From: Verrucomicrobiota bacterium
Lineage (GTDB): Bacteria; Verrucomicrobiota; Verrucomicrobiia; Chthoniobacterales; JAFAMB01
Direction of reading: 5' to 3'
NCBI GenBank assembly: GCA_019235445.1
Contig: JAFAKL010000398.1
Coordinates: 1 to 32,696, forward strand
Length of the DNA: 32,696 nucleotides
Of the stretch, positions 6,704-21,022 are shown one piece after another (positions within the stretch are counted from its first letter, which is position 1; every line of letters starts with the position of its first letter). The notes beneath the pieces were generated by a model, which worked only from the letters and a program-made list of their open reading frames with translations, was not told where the DNA came from and did no database searches. The position numbers were made by a program, and so were the translations under genes.

Positions 6704-7129
6704 TTAAGCAATGAGCTTTTTGGTCAGGCTGATATCGGCCTTCAGCACTCGCGAAACAGGACACCCTGCCTTTGCTTTGTCGGCGATTTCATCGAATTTC
6801 GCAGCGTCTATTCCGGGAACCTTGCCTGTCAAATCAAGGTGAATCGTGGTGATAGTCCAGTTTCCGTCAACTTGATCCAACGTGAGCGTTGCTTGTGTGG
6901 ATAGTTCGTCGGGCTTGAATCCTTCGGCACCCAGGAAGGCCGAACATGCCATCGTAAAACAGCCCGCATGGGCTGCGGCGATTAGCTCCTCTGGGTTCGT
7001 GCCCACCCCGTTTTCGAAACGGGTTGAAAAAGAATATTGGGTCTGCTTTAACACGCCACTTTGTGTGGAAACCGTGCCTTTGCCTTGCTTGAGATCGCCG
7101 TTCCAGACGGCGCTTGCGGTACGTTTCAT
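6704..7129 (-). CDS. osmC: OsmC family protein (peroxide reductase-like)
   Basis: [65 protein letters not shown]. Start moved to the internal Met at 7129. Confidence 0.93.
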
Positions 7130-7417
7130 AGGTTTTCGGGGATTTTGATCCGGTGTAAGGGTTTGAGAAGCATCCCGGGATGCCTCGGTTTCAAAATGCC
7201 GCTCGAGCGCTGACAATCAAGTCAATTGAGTTGACGAGGAACTCTCCCGCTGAAGGTGGTTCGTAAACCTTCGCGCTGGCGCAAAACGCTGTAACGCCGC
7301 AAAAGCAGAGCGAATTCAGAGAGGCTGGCGCTAGATCCCGGAGAAAATAGGGGCTCGACTGACCTATCGAGACTCAAAATCGCCAGTCACGGACCAGAGG
7401 ACCTAGAGTGCAGAAGA

Positions 7418-7597
7418 TTAACTTTTCGAGAAAGCGAAACTCGGGATGGGGAATTTCGCGTTGATCAGTTTCAAAACCTCCGTACAAACTTCGTCCATTG
7501 AGATATCAAAGACCTCACTGATGGCACGCAACTCGGCGAGTTGGTCAGGCGTCGCGGCAAGCAGGACTTCGTTTAATTGCTGAGGAGAATATTTCAT
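7418..7597 (-). CDS. Small hypothetical protein (59 aa), not in the supplied ORF track
   Basis: Translated by hand: MKYSPQQLNEVLLAATPDQLAELRAISEVFDISMDEVCTEVLKLINAKFPIPSFAFSKS*. Confidence 0.45.
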   Translation of the reverse strand: MKYSPQQLNEVLLAATPDQLAELRAISEVFDISMDEVCTEVLKLINAKFPIPSFAFSKS

Positions 7598-8710: not shown

Positions 8711-9754
8711 CTAATCGGGGAACGATCTGTGAAGCCAGTTCAATGGGAAACGATTTCCCGGGCAATCGGTCGGTCGAGGATTGATCTCTTTGTGTCCTCG
8801 CACAATTGAATAATGGTCATCCACTTTGCCGACACGCCTCCGTAGGTAGCGTATCAGTTCGTCGAGGGCTTCATATTCCGCCTTCGTCGGCAAGTCTCGG
8901 TTAAAATCGCCGACCAGACAGATGCCGATCGAGATGTAATTGAGATAGTCGCTGTGCACATGTCCACCGTTGAGTTGCCGGACCCACCGGTTACCGATTT
9001 CGATCTGACCATTTCCAGAGGATGTGCCGTTGCCGATTACGAAATGATAAGCCAGCCCGTTTGGCATCCGTCGCACATACCTATGATAGTAGTCGAAGAT
9101 ACGAGCGTTTCCCTGGCGAGTTCCGCTGTTATGAACGATGATGTATTTCCATCGATTGCGGGCGACCCTGGCGTCGTCTATTGCCTTGCGGATTCCCGGA
9201 GTGAGGTATTGCCAGCGGACGTCGCCGCCGCCGGGAGCCGGTACGAGGTCCTTTTGTGCTTCGGCGCCGGACTTTTGCACGACGATGGAATCATCATCTC
9301 GTCTACCAAAGAAGAACCAATGCTTCTTCTTCCTGGCGGTTGGAGAGGGCGATTCTCTTTGGGTGGGGGGCGTTGCTGCGGCCTGGCTCGCGACCGACTT
9401 TGGCTGAGGAGAGGGGGTTGGGCTAGGAACTTCTTCGGCCTGGGTTGGGGAGGGCCGTACGGTGGGGCTTGGCGGAGCGGATTTCGGGGAGGCTGTTTCC
9501 GGGGAAGCGTAGTGGAAGGGTCTTAGGGGAGAAGGAGCCGGGCTTGGAGTTGGTTTCGGCGAGGGAGTGGGACTTTGGACGATCTCCATTTTCTGGCGGC
9601 TTTTTAAGAAGAGTTCCCGCAACCGTTTTTCCTCGTCAGTCTGTTGCGTCGCGCCGTGATTTGGACCGAGTGCCAAAAAGAAGAGCACCGTCAGGAAAAG
9701 TAGCTTCAGGCTGCGCCGATGAGAACTGATGGTACGGAAATTATAAAATTCCAA
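8711..9754 (-). CDS. N-acetylmuramoyl-L-alanine amidase / PGRP-like, with N-terminal hydrophobic segment and Pro/Ser/Thr-rich linker
   Basis: LLFLTVLFFLALG hydrophobic stretch; SPTPSPKPTPSPAPSP linker; YIIVHNSGTRQGNARIFDYYHR, NGLAYHFVIGNG, HVHSDYLNYISIGICLVGDF, GHKEINPRPTDCPG. Confidence 0.92.
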   Translation of the reverse strand: MEFYNFRTISSHRRSLKLLFLTVLFFLALGPNHGATQQTDEEKRLRELFLKSRQKMEIVQSPTPSPKPTPSPAPSPLRPFHYASPETASPKSAPPSPTVRPSPTQAEEVPSPTPSPQPKSVASQAAATPPTQRESPSPTARKKKHWFFFGRRDDDSIVVQKSGAEAQKDLVPAPGGGDVRWQYLTPGIRKAIDDARVARNRWKYIIVHNSGTRQGNARIFDYYHRYVRRMPNGLAYHFVIGNGTSSGNGQIEIGNRWVRQLNGGHVHSDYLNYISIGICLVGDFNRDLPTKAEYEALDELIRYLRRRVGKVDDHYSIVRGHKEINPRPTDCPGNRFPLNWLHRSFPD

Positions 9755-9949: not shown

Positions 9950-11932
9950 ATGAAAAAGATCCTGATCTTTACCGCCGGGTTCGGTGAGGGACACAACACG
10001 GCGGCGCGCAATATTCGTGACGCTTTGGAACATATTGCCCCTGAAGAGGCGAAGGTCGAGGTGCTCGATCTTTTCGATACATGTTACGGCAAGCTCAACG
10101 ACTTGGTCCGGAAAGCCTACATCACTGCGATCAATCGGACGCCGAGAGTCTGGGGAAAGATCTACAGCGTCATCGACGGGACGCAATTTGTGGAATCGAA
10201 CATGGCGATGCTCGCGAAGATGAAGCGCGCGATGAGCGACGTGCTTGCTGACCTGGAACCTGATGCCGTGGTTTCAACTTACCCGATTTACAATTATGTC
10301 ATCGACGCGATCTACGCGGATGGACGGCCCAAGACTTTTTCACAGGTCACCGTAATCACAGATTCCATTACCGTAAACTCAATCTGGTACCGGTGCGTGA
10401 GCGATTATTTCCTCGTCGCCAACGAAGATACCGCGAACGTGTTGCGAAATGCAGGCGTTCCGGAAGAGCAAATGCGGATCTTCGGCTTTCCTGTCACTTA
10501 CCGGTTTGCAGAAATGCCCGATAATCGCTATCGCAGCAGTGAAAAGGGCCCTCGACGTGTTCTCTACCTGATCAATTCTGGGAAAAAGGAAGCTCCAGCC
10601 TTGGTGCGTCGTCTCTGCAAGCGACCGGACTTACAACTGACGATCATCGTCGGACGCGATCGAACGCTTCGGAAAGAGATCGAAAGTGAGATCAAAACAC
10701 CGGCGCATCCCGTCGATATCCTCGGTTGGTCAAATCGGATGCCCGAGCTACTGATGGGGCATCATTTAGTCATTACCAAAGCCGGAGGCGCAACCGTGCA
10801 GGAAGCGATTGCCGGGCGTACGCCGGTCATTATCAGCCAGGTTGTTCCCGGACAAGAGGAGGGAAACGCGCGCTTGATCGTTGAGAACGACTGTGGGTGT
10901 CTGGCTCCTGATCCCGAGGGCATCCTGGAGGCGCTCGACAGCGCTTTCCACCAAGGCGAAAAACGGTTGCATACCTGGGTCAGCAATATCTCGAAACTAA
11001 GTAAGCCAGACGCCTCGCTGCAAATCGCCCATTTCTTACTACAGCTGGCTTCACCTGAAAATGCTCCTCCAAAAAAGTTGCCCCATTTTCTTCGCACCCA
11101 GTCCGAGGGGAAAGACGGGCGATCTATTCTCCTGTGCGATCTTCACACGCACAGCGTCTATTCGGACGGGAAGCTGACCGTCCAGGAATTAGTCGATTTC
11201 TACGGGCAACGGAACTTCGATGTAGTTTGTGTGACGGACCACATTTGTGATCACACGAGCTTGATCGGCAAGATGACAAATTTGACCGGGATGGTGCTCA
11301 CCCTCAACGAGGTCGAGGAATACTTCGAGACTATCGAAAACGAGAAAAAGAGGGCCCTCGAAAAGTATGGGATGATTTTGATGACGGGGTTGGAATTCAA
11401 TAAAGACGGCCTCACCAAAAAAAGCTCGGCTCATCTGCTTGCCGTAGATCTGAAGCTGCCCATTGATCCGGGGCAAAGCATCACTCAGACGATCGCGGAG
11501 ATTCATAGTCAGGGCGCGTTGGCGATCGCCTCGCATCCTCACGAAGTGAAAACACGCTGGGGCAAGAACACGCTTTACTTTTGGGAGAACATCGATAGGT
11601 ATGCACCGCTTCTTGATGCATGGGAGGTGGCAAACCGAGATGATCTTTTTAATCCCATCGGACTAAAAAGGCTACCGTTCGTGGCCAACAGCGATTTCCA
11701 CAAGCCGAAGCATATCTTTTCATGGAAGACGGTTCTTTTCTGCGAGAAAGAACCGGAAGCCATTAAGCAGTGTATTCGCGTCAATCGGGATGTTTCAATC
11801 ACGCTTTTTCGTGATCATCGGATCGGCTTTGGCTACAAGAACCCGGAGCGCGCCGCCCGTTTCGACTTTGCCGCCAATGAGTCTCCGAATCGATTGGTCG
11901 AGTTTCCGACGTATCGCGCTAATCTGGCCTGA
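9950..11932 (+). CDS. MGDG-synthase-like glycosyltransferase fused to a C-terminal PHP-domain phosphoesterase
   Basis: N-terminus MKKILIFTAGFGEGHNTAARNIRDAL and HHLVITKAGGATVQEAIAGRTPVIISQVVPGQEEGNARL; C-terminus LCDLHTHSVYSDGKLTVQELVDFY, VTDHICDH, TGLEFN, IASHPHE, FVANSDFHKPKH. Confidence 0.92.
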   Translation: MKKILIFTAGFGEGHNTAARNIRDALEHIAPEEAKVEVLDLFDTCYGKLNDLVRKAYITAINRTPRVWGKIYSVIDGTQFVESNMAMLAKMKRAMSDVLADLEPDAVVSTYPIYNYVIDAIYADGRPKTFSQVTVITDSITVNSIWYRCVSDYFLVANEDTANVLRNAGVPEEQMRIFGFPVTYRFAEMPDNRYRSSEKGPRRVLYLINSGKKEAPALVRRLCKRPDLQLTIIVGRDRTLRKEIESEIKTPAHPVDILGWSNRMPELLMGHHLVITKAGGATVQEAIAGRTPVIISQVVPGQEEGNARLIVENDCGCLAPDPEGILEALDSAFHQGEKRLHTWVSNISKLSKPDASLQIAHFLLQLASPENAPPKKLPHFLRTQSEGKDGRSILLCDLHTHSVYSDGKLTVQELVDFYGQRNFDVVCVTDHICDHTSLIGKMTNLTGMVLTLNEVEEYFETIENEKKRALEKYGMILMTGLEFNKDGLTKKSSAHLLAVDLKLPIDPGQSITQTIAEIHSQGALAIASHPHEVKTRWGKNTLYFWENIDRYAPLLDAWEVANRDDLFNPIGLKRLPFVANSDFHKPKHIFSWKTVLFCEKEPEAIKQCIRVNRDVSITLFRDHRIGFGYKNPERAARFDFAANESPNRLVEFPTYRANLA

Positions 11933-12537
11933 TGAGTATCGAGGCGCTGATCTTCGACATCGGTAATGTCCTTGTGCCGTTCGATTGGCAACTTTTTCAC
12001 CATCGACTAGAGGCGGAATTAAATAGCCTGACCGCGGATGCGGAACAGGAATTCAGGGATCTGATGATCCGGTTTGATCTCGGAGAAATGACGGGGGAAC
12101 AATTTGCGCGCATGGCCGTTCGCATGATCGGATTTCAAGGAGATGAGGGGGAGTTTATCAGGATCTGGAATAGTATCTTCAGTTCGAACCCGCCGATGGA
12201 ACGAACGATCCTTGCTTTACAGAAGCGTTTCCCTCTTTATTTGCTTTCCAACACGTCAGACCTTCATCTCGCATATCTGAAGGGGAGTTGTGATATTCTA
12301 AAACACTTTATAGACGGCGTTTATTCATTTCGGGCAAAATGCGCAAAGCCGGACCGCAAGATTTTTGAGAAAGCGATCAATCAATTCAGATTAAGGCCCG
12401 AGAACACTGCCTACATCGATGACCTGGCAGCAAACGTCCGCAGTGCTTCAGCGTTTGGCCTGAAAGCAATCCAATATGACCTGACGAAGCACGCCGAGTT
12501 TGAGCAGTGGCTTGCCGAAATAGGGGTCCTGATTTAA
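11932..12537 (+). CDS. HAD superfamily (class IA) hydrolase
   Basis: IFDIGNVLVPFDW, LLSNTSDLHLAYL, KCAKPDRKIFEKAI, YIDDLAANV. Start overlaps the upstream stop as TGATG. Confidence 0.93.
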   Translation: MSIEALIFDIGNVLVPFDWQLFHHRLEAELNSLTADAEQEFRDLMIRFDLGEMTGEQFARMAVRMIGFQGDEGEFIRIWNSIFSSNPPMERTILALQKRFPLYLLSNTSDLHLAYLKGSCDILKHFIDGVYSFRAKCAKPDRKIFEKAINQFRLRPENTAYIDDLAANVRSASAFGLKAIQYDLTKHAEFEQWLAEIGVLI

Positions 12538-15361: not shown

Positions 15362-15592
15362 ATGAAGGTGGACGTCGTCGTGATGCCAAAGCAGAGCGTT
15401 CTGGATCCTCAGGGTGTTGCGGTGAGAAATGCACTGAAAGATCTTGGACTCGACAGCGTCGAATCTGTGCGCGTGGGGAAGTTCCTGGAATTGGAATTTA
15501 AAACTTTGCCCGATGAGGCGAAGCTGCAAGAGGTTTGTCGTGATCTTCTCTCGAATCCGGTGATCGAAGAGTACACGATCCGCATCGCGTGA
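15362..15592 (+). CDS. purS: Phosphoribosylformylglycinamidine synthase subunit PurS
   Basis: MKVDVVVMPKQSVLDPQGVAVRNALKDLGLDSVESVRVGKFLELEF; followed directly by purQ and purL. Confidence 0.95.
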   Translation: MKVDVVVMPKQSVLDPQGVAVRNALKDLGLDSVESVRVGKFLELEFKTLPDEAKLQEVCRDLLSNPVIEEYTIRIA

Positions 15593-16305
15593 AAACGCCT
15601 ATGAAGATTGCAGTAGTTCAGTTCCCTGGCTCAAACTGTGACCAGGACTGTTTGCGGGCGTTGACTGACGGACTTCACTTACCCGCCGAATACGTCTGGC
15701 ACAAACAGACCTCTCTGTCCGGCTTTGACGCCGTGGTGTTGCCCGGCGGATTTTCATATGGCGACTATTTGCGCTGCGGAGCAATCGCGCGCTTTTCACC
15801 GATCATGAGAGCGGTCGTCCGGTCGGCGAAGGAAGGAATGCCGGTGATTGGACTCTGCAATGGGTTCCAGATCTTGTGCGAGGCCGGGTTGTTGCCTGGA
15901 GCATTGATCCGGAATCAATCGCTGCGCTTCGTTTGCCAATCGATCTGGTTGCGCGTAGAAACTGGCGACACACCTTTCACCGCTAACTTGCAAGGGCGGC
16001 GAGTTCTCAAGATGCCGATTGCGCATGGGGAGGGTTCCTATTTTGTCGATGAAAGAAGCCTCGAAACCCTGGAATCCAAAAACCAGGTAGTGTTTCGTTA
16101 CGTCGACGAAACGGGAGATGTGACAGCGGGATCTAATCCAAACGGCTCGATCCACAATATTGCCGGCATCTGCAACGAAGCGCGTAACGTGCTGGGCATG
16201 ATGCCGCATCCTGATCGCGCGTGGGACCGCAAGCTTGGCAGCGAAGATGGGAAATTAATCTTCGGTTCGCTGGCCGAAACCTTGGAACCTGTCGTCTCCA
16301 GATAA
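15589..16305 (+). CDS. purQ: Phosphoribosylformylglycinamidine synthase subunit PurQ (GATase)
   Basis: [69 protein letters not shown]. Start may be 15589 (GTG) or 15601 (ATG). Confidence 0.97.
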
Positions 16306-18530
16306 TGGTTACTGAGATAACGCCGGACCTGATCCGAACTCATGGCTTAACTGACCAGGAGTACGCACAGATTAAGGCAATCCTGGGCCGAGAGCCGAAT
16401 TTCACCGAGTTGGGCGTCTTCTCGGTGATGTGGAGCGAACATTGTTCCTATAAGAACACCCGCCTCGAGCTTAAGAAATTTCCAATTAGCGGCCAGAAAG
16501 TTCTGGTCAAGGCTGGAGAAGAAAACGCGGGTGTGATTGACGTTGGGGACAGTTGGGCGGTCGCCTTCAAGATGGAAAGCCACAATCACCCCAGTGCCAT
16601 CGAACCTTTCCAAGGTGCAGCAACGGGAGTTGGCGGGATTATTCGCGACATATTCACCATGGGTGCGCGACCTCTATTCCTTTTGGATTCGCTCCGGTTT
16701 GGTCCAATCCAAGGTGCGAGCCCGGCAGCGAAAAACAATCGGCGGCTCTTTTCGGAGGTGGTAGCCGGAATTTCGCATTACGGAAACTGCATTGGCATTC
16801 CGACGATTGGTGGCGAGATCTCCTTTGACGAATCGTACGAAGGGAACCCCCTGGTAAATGTCTTTTGCCTGGGAATTCTTCGCCATGAACAGATTGCTCG
16901 CGGGGCCGCCAAAGGCGTTGGAAATTCAGTATTTTACGTCGGGTCGGAAACGGGGCGGGACGGCTTGGCAGGAGCGGCTTTCGCATCACGCGATTTAACG
17001 GAGCAATCAAAGCAGGACCGACCGGCGGTTCAGGTTGGCGATCCATTCAAAGGGAAGCTCTTGCTGGAAGCGTGCCTCGAACTTCTGGCAAGTGGTTGTG
17101 TGGCCGGCATTCAGGACATGGGGGCTGCGGGATTGACCTGCTCGACCTGTGAGACCGCGAGTCGCGGGGGTACTGGGGTAGAGATCGACTTGGCGCTGGT
17201 TCCTCAAAGGGAAACCGGAATGACCCCTTACGAGATTCTTCTCAGCGAGTCGCAGGAGCGCATGTTGATCATCGTGGAGCGAGGCGGGGAGGCAACGCTG
17301 AAGGAAATTTTTGATAAATGGGATTTGCCGTATGCCCGCGTGGGTGAAGTGACCTGCGACGGCATGATGCGCGTATTGGACCATGGATGCGTTAAGGTGG
17401 AAATTCCCGCGCGAAAGCTGGCCAACAACGCCCCCGTCTACGAGCGCGAGGCGTTGGCAGATCCACAGGCGCCTGAATTTCGGATTGAAGATCTCCCTGC
17501 TGCTGATTCGCACGAGAGCTTGATCCGGCTGCTGGCGTACCCGACGATCGCCTCAAAAAATTGGGTCTATCGCCAATATGATCACACCGTGCGGGCAGGA
17601 ACCGTTGTACCTCCGGGATCCGATGCGGCCGTGTTCTATGTTCGGGAAGCCGACAAGTTCCTCGCGGCCACGACGGATTGCAACAGCCTTTACTGCAAAT
17701 TGAATCCGCGCGAAGGAGCCCGAATTGCGGTGGCTGAAGCTGCCAGAAATCTGATTTGCTCGGGGGCGAAACCCTTGGCCGTGACGGACAACCTGAATTT
17801 TGGGAACCCGTATCAGCCGAAAATTTTTTGGCAGTTACGTGAATCGGTGGAGGGTCTGGCCGAAGCCTGCCTCAGGTTCGGTGTTCCTGTGGTGGGTGGC
17901 AATGTCAGTTTGTATAACCAGAACCCCAACAGCGCAATTGATCCCACTCCGACGGTGGGAATGGTCGGTGTCATCGGTGAAGAACGCTGGATAACGCGGC
18001 AATATTTCTGTGATCAATCGGATATCATTTACCTGATCGGTCCCGTGGGCCACGAACTGGGTGCGAGCCAATATCTGAAGATCATCCACGGCCGAAAAGA
18101 GTTTCTGCCTCCGCGTTTGAGTTACGATCTGGAACTTGGGGTTCAGGCAGTTGTGCTCTCGTTAATCCAGCAGGGGCTGGTTAAGAGTGCTCACGATTGT
18201 TCAGAAGGCGGTTTAGGAGTTGCCTTGGCCGAATGTTGCATTTCCGGCCCTCGAAGAGTTGGTGCGCGGGTGGACTTTGGCAATTGGCCGGAACGTCTGG
18301 ACCAGATCCTTTTTAACGAATCTCAATCGAGAGTAATCCTTTCTGCGCCGCCGGAAGCTAAGGAGGCGCTGGAAGCGGTATGCGCGGCCGCAGAAATTCA
18401 ATTTGGCAGAATGGGGCAGGTGGGCGGGTCCGATCTGATCGTCTCCGCTCGGCGAGAAACGCTGCTGTGGGACGTAGATGAACTTTACCATGCATGGTAT
18501 GATTCGATCGAACGGGTCATGCGTTCCTAA
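16305..18530 (+). CDS. purL: Phosphoribosylformylglycinamidine synthase subunit PurL
   Basis: [81 protein letters not shown]. Confidence 0.98.
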
Positions 18531-18536
18531 CGAAAC

Positions 18537-20000
18537 GTGAATAACTTCGATAAGCCACGCCACGAGTGCGGCGTCTTTGCCGTCTACGGTCACCCGGATG
18601 CTGCGATGTTGACCTATTACGGCTTGTTTGCCCTGCAGCATCGGGGCCAAGAGAGCGCCGGGATGGTAACCGCGGCAGGATCCAATCAGCCGTTCAATAT
18701 CCATCGTGGCATGGGCTTGGTCTCCCAAGTTTTCCAGGAAAAGGAGTTGCAGCAGCTGCGGATTGGGACCAGAGCGATTGGTCATGTCCGATATTCGACC
18801 AGCGGTTCGAGCACGCTGAAAAATGCGCAACCGTTGGTGGTCGATTGTGCGCGCGGACAACTGGCGATCGCGCATAATGGGAACCTGGTGAACGCGGCCA
18901 TGTTACGCGACGAATTGGAATCGAATGGTTCCATTTTTCAGACGACCGTTGATAGCGAGATCATACTGCATCTTCTCGCCCGTCCTACAGGGCGAAAAAA
19001 CGTGCTGAGTGCGTTGCGACTTGTGGAAGGCGCATTCTCGTTCGTCCTGATGGGAGAACAAGAAATCCTCGGCGTGCGAGATCCTTTCGGATTTCGGCCG
19101 CTGGTATTGGGCAAACTGGACGACGCATTTATCCTGACCTCTGAAACCTGCGCGCTGGATCTGGTCCATGCAGACTACATTCGAGAAATCGAACCTGGAG
19201 AAGTCGTCATCATCAACGATGACGGCATCAGATCAGAATGGCCGTTTAAAGAGGAGCGAAAGGCCTTTTGCATTTTTGAATACGTTTATTTTGCGCGACC
19301 CGACAGTCTCATCAACGACCGGAATGTGAGCAAGGCGCGCGTAGCAATGGGCGTTGAACTGGCCAGGTTGCATCCGGTGGACGCAGACATCGTGGTGCCG
19401 GTTCCAGATTCCGGAAATTATGCGGCGCTCGGTTACAGTCAGGAATTGAATATCCCGTACGAACAGGCGTTTGTCCGGAATCACTACATAGGACGAACTT
19501 TTCTTCAGCCGACCCAGTTGATCCGCGATTTTAACGTGCGGGTGAAGCTCAACCTGATCAAAGAATTGGTGAAAGATAAGCGTGTGGTGGTGGTTGACGA
19601 TTCCGTGGTCCGCGGAACCACCGCAAGAGCGCGCGTCGTGAACTTGCGCGAGGCGGGCGCGAAGGAAGTACATCTGCGGATCAGTTGCCCACCTCACAAA
19701 TACGCTTGCTATTATGGCATTGATTTTCCCGACCCGAAGAACTTGTTGGCCAATCAGTTCAAAACGGAAGATTTAGCTGAATATTTGGAAGTCGATTCGA
19801 TTGGTTATTTGAGTATCGAGGGGATGGTCCGGGCGACTGGGTTGCCGATGAACGAATTCTGCCTAGCCTGTTTTAATGGCCAATACCCGGTCCCAATCGA
19901 TCAGGAGCTGGACAAGTTCATCGTCGAACGCCGCAGTGCGCGTTCACGGGCATTGAGTGAACCGGCGGCGCATCCTGAGCTCTTTGCCGGCTTGAAATGA
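18537..20000 (+). CDS. purF: Amidophosphoribosyltransferase PurF (GTG start)
   Basis: HECGVFAVYGHPDAAMLTYYGLFALQHRGQESAGMVT; VVVVDDSVVRGTTARARVVNLREAGAKEVHLRISCPP. Confidence 0.98.
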   Translation: MNNFDKPRHECGVFAVYGHPDAAMLTYYGLFALQHRGQESAGMVTAAGSNQPFNIHRGMGLVSQVFQEKELQQLRIGTRAIGHVRYSTSGSSTLKNAQPLVVDCARGQLAIAHNGNLVNAAMLRDELESNGSIFQTTVDSEIILHLLARPTGRKNVLSALRLVEGAFSFVLMGEQEILGVRDPFGFRPLVLGKLDDAFILTSETCALDLVHADYIREIEPGEVVIINDDGIRSEWPFKEERKAFCIFEYVYFARPDSLINDRNVSKARVAMGVELARLHPVDADIVVPVPDSGNYAALGYSQELNIPYEQAFVRNHYIGRTFLQPTQLIRDFNVRVKLNLIKELVKDKRVVVVDDSVVRGTTARARVVNLREAGAKEVHLRISCPPHKYACYYGIDFPDPKNLLANQFKTEDLAEYLEVDSIGYLSIEGMVRATGLPMNEFCLACFNGQYPVPIDQELDKFIVERRSARSRALSEPAAHPELFAGLK

Positions 20001-21022
20001 GAAAAGCGGAGAAGTGGAAGGCGTACGCCTCCGCGGGGGTTGACATTGATCTAGGCAATCGGGTCAAAAAAGGACTCCAGGAAAAGGTCCGCACCACTTT
20101 CGGCCCAGAAGTGCTCGGGCGCATCGGTGGGTTTGGCGGCCTATTCAGGGCGGATTTCGCAGGCATGAAAGAGCCGGTGCTCGTCTCCAGCATTGATGGA
20201 GTGGGTACGAAGCTGAAAATCGCGGTCGCGCTCGGCAGGCATTCCACAGTCGCTCAGGACCTGGTGAATCATTGTATAAACGATATCGCGGTAACCGGTG
20301 CGCGCCCGCTATTTTTTCTTGACTACATCGGCGCCGAACGTCTTGAGCCGGTGGTTTTCGATCAGCTGATTTCAGGGTTCACGCAAGCATGCAAGAGAGG
20401 AGGCTGCGCTTTGATAGGCGGAGAAACCGCCCAGCTTCCGGAGCTGTACCATGCGGGGGAGTACGATCTGGCCGGCTGCATCATCGGCCTGGTGGATCGT
20501 GCCCGGATTCTGGATGGAAGTCGGATTGTGCCGTCCGACCTCTTGATCGCCCTACCCTCTAACGGGTTGCACACCAATGGGTACACTCTGGCTCGAAAGG
20601 TTTTATTGGAAAAAATGCGGCTTGATCTCCTCCAGAGGGTGAACGGTCTGGCGAAACCGCTCGGAGAGGAGCTTCTCAGGGTCCACAGGAATTACCAACC
20701 TGCCATGGCCTTGGTTCCCGCCGGAATAATCAAGGGGGCGGCCCATATCACGGGAGGTGGCTTAGTCGATAATTTGCCTCGAATCCTTCCGGCTGCGTGC
20801 GATGCATTGATCAAAACTTCCTCCTGGAAAGTTCCACCGATATTTCAGCTAATTCAGCGGGGTGGCGACGTTGGGCGGGAAGAAATGTACCAGGTATTCA
20901 ATATGGGCGTCGGGATGGTGCTGGTGGTCTCGAAGTTGCATGCTTCCGAAGTGCTGTTACAAACTAAGGGAAAGGTGGTTGGCCAAATTGTTCGAGGATC
21001 TGGCAAGGTTCTCCTGGACTGA
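19997..21022 (+). CDS. purM: Phosphoribosylformylglycinamidine cyclo-ligase PurM
   Basis: YASAGVDIDLGNRVKKGL, FRADFAGMKEPVLVSSIDGVGTKLKIAV, ALIGGETAQLPELYHAGEYDLAG, HITGGGLVDNLPRILP. Confidence 0.98.
   Translation: MRKAEKWKAYASAGVDIDLGNRVKKGLQEKVRTTFGPEVLGRIGGFGGLFRADFAGMKEPVLVSSIDGVGTKLKIAVALGRHSTVAQDLVNHCINDIAVTGARPLFFLDYIGAERLEPVVFDQLISGFTQACKRGGCALIGGETAQLPELYHAGEYDLAGCIIGLVDRARILDGSRIVPSDLLIALPSNGLHTNGYTLARKVLLEKMRLDLLQRVNGLAKPLGEELLRVHRNYQPAMALVPAGIIKGAAHITGGGLVDNLPRILPAACDALIKTSSWKVPPIFQLIQRGGDVGREEMYQVFNMGVGMVLVVSKLHASEVLLQTKGKVVGQIVRGSGKVLLD

Follow-up and report, generated by a model that had tools for sequence, protein, structure and literature searches.

The window, a stretch of 32,696 nucleotides from contig JAFAKL010000398.1 of a Verrucomicrobiota bacterium (assembly GCA_019235445.1), carries an open reading frame that starts with ATG, has no internal stops and encodes a glycosyltransferase (GT) joined to a PHP phosphoesterase (Table 1). 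A preliminary description of this DNA had proposed that both activities reside in one protein, and the single intact frame, the presence of both Pfam domains and the recovery of every motif that it quoted bear this out. The HAD-IA hydrolase gene overlapping the end of the fusion is kept in the window's lineage and also lies behind two orthologs of the same order that consist of the GT only. The divergent Amidase_2 gene, which adjoins GT-only orthologs as well, is probably not part of the system. Farther downstream (15589-21022, plus strand) lies an ordinary purine biosynthesis run encoding GATase_5 (PurQ-like), AIRS (PurL-like), PurF-like and PurM-like proteins.

Table 1. Coordinates of features in the window and of the GT-only gene at locus L168
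Feature	Position	Strand	Basis or remark
GT-PHP fusion gene, 660 aa	9950..11932	+	Open ORF, Pfam domains, full-length orthologs
MGDG_synth N-terminal GT-B half, residues 15-182	9992..10495	+	PF06925
His15 of GEGH	9992-9994	+	Aligned to G-loop His of MGD1/PRK13609-type enzymes
Glyco_tran_28_C nucleotide-sugar half, residues 220-324; E285, GQEEGN 301-306	10607..10921	+	PF04101
Interdomain linker, residues 371-390	11060..11119	+	Low pLDDT, variable length in orthologs
PHP phosphoesterase domain, residues 391-626	11120..11827	+	PF02811; 2anu by sequence and fold
Candidate PHP ligands H399, H401, D406, H431, E482, H495, H529, D582, H584	within 11120..11827	+	Invariant in 76/76
HAD-IA hydrolase (HAD-1A3/YihX-like)	11932..12537	+	Start overlaps fusion stop by one base
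N-acetylmuramoyl-L-alanine amidase (Amidase_2)	8711..9754	-	PF01510; divergent neighbour
GT-only gene nested in fusion clade	L168 1081-3080	-	Overlaps PlcP-like gene upstream

The N-terminal half belongs to family GT28, with MGDG_synth (71.8 bits, Pfam cut-off 25) followed in order by Glyco_tran_28_C (28.3 bits, cut-off 22), each above its gathering score, and it contains both the GEGHNTAARNIRDAL and the AGGATVQEAIAGRTPVI motifs. Its 370 residues align throughout with MGDG synthase/diglucosyl-DAG synthase (GT28; AtMGD1 4wyi, NF010135), homology to AtMGD1 covering residues 2-375 in a sequence comparison with solved structures, and the GEGH loop and GQExGN site are common to both. This predicted DAG glycosyltransferase half scores 159.7 bits against an NF010135 equivalog cut-off of 500, and the C-terminal PHP domain sets the fusion apart from these enzymes. 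Profile match (PF02811 at residues 397-486, 30.8 bits, cut-off 26.4) and fold (2anu, 7ug9, 2yb1) place the C-terminal half in the PHP superfamily, and the motifs HTHSVYSDG, TDH, LEF, SHPHE and NSDFH and the full ligand set (HxH, D, H, E, H, H, DxH) are all present. Its closest structure is that of TM0559 from T. maritima (2anu), a 255-residue uncharacterised PHP protein that, unlike the fusion, has no GT; homology covers residues 391-625 (E 6e-57), and 2anu also heads the Foldseek list over the whole PHP half (TM-score 0.83-0.90, 42% identity), followed by 3e38 and RNase AM, with the C. violaceum structure 2yb1 further down.

An AlphaFold2 model of the whole protein (mean pLDDT 80.5, pTM 0.61) recovered both folds, with low confidence in the linker at 371-386 (pLDDT <50) and in the tail at 621-660; the PHP half modelled alone reached a pLDDT of 86.4 and a pTM of 0.87. 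Across orthologs the stretch corresponding to residues 368-392 is 24 to 106 residues long. In the window protein, each of the two domains looks catalytically intact. Assignment of the PHP half to HisJ, RNase AM, nucleoside bisphosphatase or CehA/McbA was rejected, all falling below NCBIfam cut-offs (CehA, 46.6 versus 80; RNase RNM, 30 versus 375), and it is not a member of the PlcP family, as it matches PF02811 in Pfam without a match to PF00149.

The suspicion that a missed stop or an assembly join at 11050-11130 had created the fusion is refuted, as the frame runs on unbroken in independent MAG contigs at 92%, 84%, and 69-72% identity to the window protein and in many further genomes at about 42-58% identity (Methylacidiphilum, Methylacidimicrobium, Pedosphaera/Limisphaerales, and others). 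Some 90 Verrucomicrobiota genomes, those of Methylacidiphilum/Methylacidimicrobium among them, have a full-length ortholog. By tblastn, 75 relatives were confirmed in verrucomicrobial genomes, almost all of them fused, and strong matches in 64 of the 293 genomes searched in one order were again nearly all fused. Among 388 genomes of the phylum, all nine PHPs of this type (>60% identity) lay in the fused frame, no stand-alone version appeared among the strong matches, and GT-only orthologs were more widespread than the fusion-type PHP. Plasmid relatives of the PHP half were looked for and none were found.

From this distribution it follows that the fusion is old and maintained. Far from being rare, the architecture is conserved in several verrucomicrobial orders, although no paper describing a PHP-glycosyltransferase fusion of this kind was found in the open-access literature searched. 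The fusion is real and conserved, and it is apparently undescribed. Two loci depart from the usual layout: L010 (1399-4296, minus strand) has a 965-residue fusion ORF with about 285 additional N-terminal residues that lack a Pfam match, its start being uncertain, and L172 of genome G266 (6870-7511, plus strand) has a partial, apparently degenerate GT duplicate some 2.5 kb ahead of its fusion gene.

The GT-only orthologs often have a neighbour of their own, a calcineurin-like metallophosphoesterase gene that we call PlcP-like, directly before or after the GT gene or behind a DAG kinase gene. In 19 of the 28 GT-only genomes that have one, it lies no more than 1.2 kb from the GT gene, the operons being ordered PlcP-GT or GT-DAGK-PlcP; no fusion was found to have one as a neighbour. 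The metallophosphoesterase shares 42% identity with a protein of S. meliloti whose gene adjoins AHL synthase and LuxR genes and which, by locus-tag and neighbour order, we take to be the product of SMc00171, the PlcP gene. Homologues lie before a glycosyltransferase gene in Sphingomonas and before ppk1 in Mitsuaria. Identity with LpxH was ruled out (39-45 bits versus an NCBIfam cut-off of 134). SMc00171 has been termed a phospholipase C (PMC3596328), and PlcP releases DAG and phosphoalcohols, the DAG feeding phosphorus-free lipids (PMC3972451, PMC4796936). In many strains plcP adjoins agt or btaBA (PMC4796936).

The distributions of PlcP and the fusion are nearly exclusive. A PlcP-like gene is present in 28 of 31 GT-only genomes versus 2 of 93 that carry the fusion or the PHP alone (Fisher p 4e-22), a value that ignores phylogeny and overstates the exclusion because there are only two phylogenetically independent contrasts; in a phylogeny-aware test these went mostly in the expected direction, and with them a sign test cannot reach significance. 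The GT-only genomes that lack PlcP are small (G036, G057, and G281; 0.9-1.7 Mb). Two genomes have both the fusion and a PlcP of about 40% identity (G433 and G425), which counts against replacement of one by the other. It is not likely that PlcP was missed through divergence, because the search finds homologues of 39-45% identity at E values of 1e-49 or better. Within the window's order, 7 of 10 GT-only genomes have a PlcP-like gene; none was found in the window's genome, 92% complete, or in six related MAGs.

In the GT tree, the GT-only gene of genome G551 (L168) is sister to a fusion (100/90) within a Pedosphaera-type fusion clade, and the order of genes there is PlcP-like, GT (with a 4-bp overlap), and a bioD-like gene assigned by eye, with no PHP remnant at the locus. 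This is a natural PHP-to-PlcP swap.

We consider it probable that the fusion is a bifunctional enzyme of membrane-lipid remodelling in which the PHP half is a replacement for the non-homologous, calcineurin-like phospholipase C PlcP. The PHP half would hydrolyse a phospholipid to DAG and a phospho-headgroup, as PlcP does, the MGDG-synthase/Agt-type half would move a sugar from a UDP-sugar onto that DAG, and a phosphate-containing lipid would be swapped for a glycolipid when phosphate is scarce. What the data show is the architecture and its conservation, a distribution nearly exclusive with that of PlcP, equivalent operon positions, and Pho-box-like sites ahead of many orthologs; the substrate, the bond cleaved, the sugar, and any hand-over or channelling of DAG we infer. 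That a single chain is both phospholipase C and glycosyltransferase, converting phospholipid to glycolipid with DAG passed between its sites, and thus contains a new PHP-type phospholipase C, is a proposal that we put forward tentatively. We know of no activity for this PHP subfamily, which counts against replacement, as does the finding that the fusion has no universal neighbour or operon partner.

The lack of universal neighbours and the small number of independent evolutionary changes would also suit a PHP half unrelated to lipid supply, acting as a regulatory or structural appendage or in another pathway, with the exclusion of PlcP a matter of lineage history. Conservation and the swap in G551 make this very unlikely. 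The candidate metal ligands, along with several other residues, are invariant in all 76 fusion proteins, and the PHP half is more conserved than the GT half (mean identity to the window protein, 65% versus 47%; higher in 74 of 75). In the GT half, D40, D105, and E285 are kept in 76 of 76 orthologs, E303 and N306 in 73 each, and the G-loop histidine, H15, in 71. The five related fusions in which H15 has become E (L052, L065, L072, L088, and L103) keep an intact PHP. BtaA consumes DAG, and it is present in all five of these genomes versus 18 of 72 others (p 0.0017, the five being one clade), as expected if PHP there still supplies DAG. Three of them (L052, L072, and L088) have an LMF1 (lipase-maturation-factor) gene directly upstream of the fusion. 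At L167 (8453-9385, minus strand; genome G662), the PHP stands alone, the GT being missing apart from a short remnant of its end, which suggests that PHP can persist without its GT; no BtaA was found in that genome, a point against replacement of PlcP that an unrelated PHP would accommodate.

Further associations come from genes that recur near the fusion, which were chosen after seeing them. BtaA/DUF3419 directly adjoins the fusion in L079 and L080, where we estimate roughly 0.01 adjacency to be expected; BtaA is present in 18 of 50 genomes examined, and it was not found in the window's genome, where absences, including that of PlcP, are weak because the genome is 92% complete. A YegS-type DAG kinase gene lies 9-10 bp downstream of the fusion in L069 and L110, an order matching the GT-DAGK-PlcP order of GT-only genomes, with the fusion taking the place of the GT. 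Genes for OlsB- and OlsA-like acyltransferases are near the fusion in L086, L096, L097, and L158, and ppk1 is nearby in L056, L076, L095, and L097. L097 also has a PhoB/PhoR-like pair, so named from among the best NCBIfam matches, which fall below the cut-off, and a PstS-type protein is encoded downstream of the fusion in L085. Other recurrent neighbours are a single-domain response regulator of the CheY/PhoB-receiver type immediately upstream of the fusion (L064, L066, L086, L096, L097, and L158) and a co-directional downstream gene of about 600 codons (L162 2629-4470, L165 2061-3887, L089 8275-10050, and L090 8172-9920), the L162 copy of which has no Pfam or NCBIfam match.

About 45-70 bp ahead of the start codon, many orthologs have Pho-box-like direct repeats of 11 bp, TTMACC-N3-YYGTCAC-N4-YYGTMAC. 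The best site per 3-19 kb locus falls 20-200 bp upstream and on the right strand in 52 of 71 loci, a figure that is partly circular because these promoters were also the ones inspected to derive the YYGTMAC box. The pstS genes provide an independent test: the two-repeat core precedes pstS in 14 of 30 loci versus 1.8 expected (p 3e-10), the pstS of the window's genome being one of them. Several GT-only operons have tandem copies some 1.2 kb ahead of the GT. The E. coli-type Pho box CTGTCAT was not enriched upstream (8.7 versus 8.6 matches). Two absences count against replacement: a Pho-box-like site was found neither ahead of the window gene and its closest relatives nor before BtaA genes. We infer that the window gene itself may be under Pho control. 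Beside the Pho-box-like repeats, some fusions (e.g., L052, L072, L051, L054, L087, and L104) have DnaA-box-like tandem repeats, TTATTCACA / TGTGAATAA, and the 6-mer TGTGAA occurs in 27 of 85 upstream regions versus 6 of 290 controls.

Together, the PlcP contrast, the operons, and the Pho-box-like sites point to phospholipid turnover that supplies DAG under phosphate starvation. The preliminary description had suggested glycosyl transfer coupled to phosphoester hydrolysis on a lipid or polyprenyl phosphate; a lipid is the best-supported reading, and nothing was found that links the fusion to polyprenyl phosphate. The main rival has the PHP half act as a phosphatidate phosphatase, a monoesterase passing DAG from new phosphatidate to the GT for de novo glycolipid synthesis. 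PHP enzymes are mostly phosphomonoesterases, and an activity that likewise yields DAG would fit the BtaA, DAG kinase, and Pho associations. We nonetheless regard it as unlikely, as the gene excluded is PlcP, a diesterase that frees headgroup phosphate, and a phosphatidate phosphatase would be opposed by the DAG kinase that shares its operon. Cleavage of a water-soluble phosphoester, be it the freed headgroup or some other (phosphoethanolamine, glycerophosphate, or a UDP/UMP by-product), with DAG coming from elsewhere, seems to us distinctly unlikely. Such phosphate scavenging would match the fold relatives of PHP, which are nucleotide and histidinol phosphatases, and Pho-type regulation would likewise be expected of it, but it leaves the absence of PlcP from 91 of 93 genomes unexplained and gives no account of the PlcP gene where PHP is lost.

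With the PHP half replacing PlcP, the fusion would not be a system of a new kind but a variant form of lipid remodelling by the PlcP-Agt pathway (S. meliloti SMc00171, Phaeobacter MED193, Methylosinus; PMC4796936, PMC9239053, PMC3972451). Both combine a DAG glycosyltransferase with a phosphoesterase, and, as in that pathway, the fusion lies near Pho, BtaA, OlsBA, and ppk1 genes in some genomes, with Pho-box-like promoters in relatives. The difference is that PlcP is a calcineurin-like metallophosphoesterase encoded by a separate gene, whereas the phosphoesterase of the fusion is a non-homologous PHP domain joined to the GT. To our knowledge, phospholipase C activity would be new to the PHP superfamily. 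A chemical precedent for a PHP diesterase is Sb-PDE of Sphingobium TCM1, a PHP enzyme that hydrolyses dialkyl phosphodiesters (PMC5460133); its likeness to the fusion is taken at the superfamily level only, and it differs from the fusion PHP in carrying a signal peptide and in using haloalkyl diesters as substrates.

PlcP has been reported absent from verrucomicrobial methanotrophs (PMC9239053), and these organisms carry the GT-PHP fusion, which names a likely candidate for the missing enzyme that fills the role PlcP has elsewhere. If the proposal is true, a PHP-type phospholipase C replaces PlcP in several verrucomicrobial orders, the acidophilic methanotrophs among them, and in Verrucomicrobiota of soil and freshwater the fusion would mark remodelling under phosphate stress. 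A phospholipase C activity of the PHP half would also suggest a function for the orphan structure of TM0559 and its kin.
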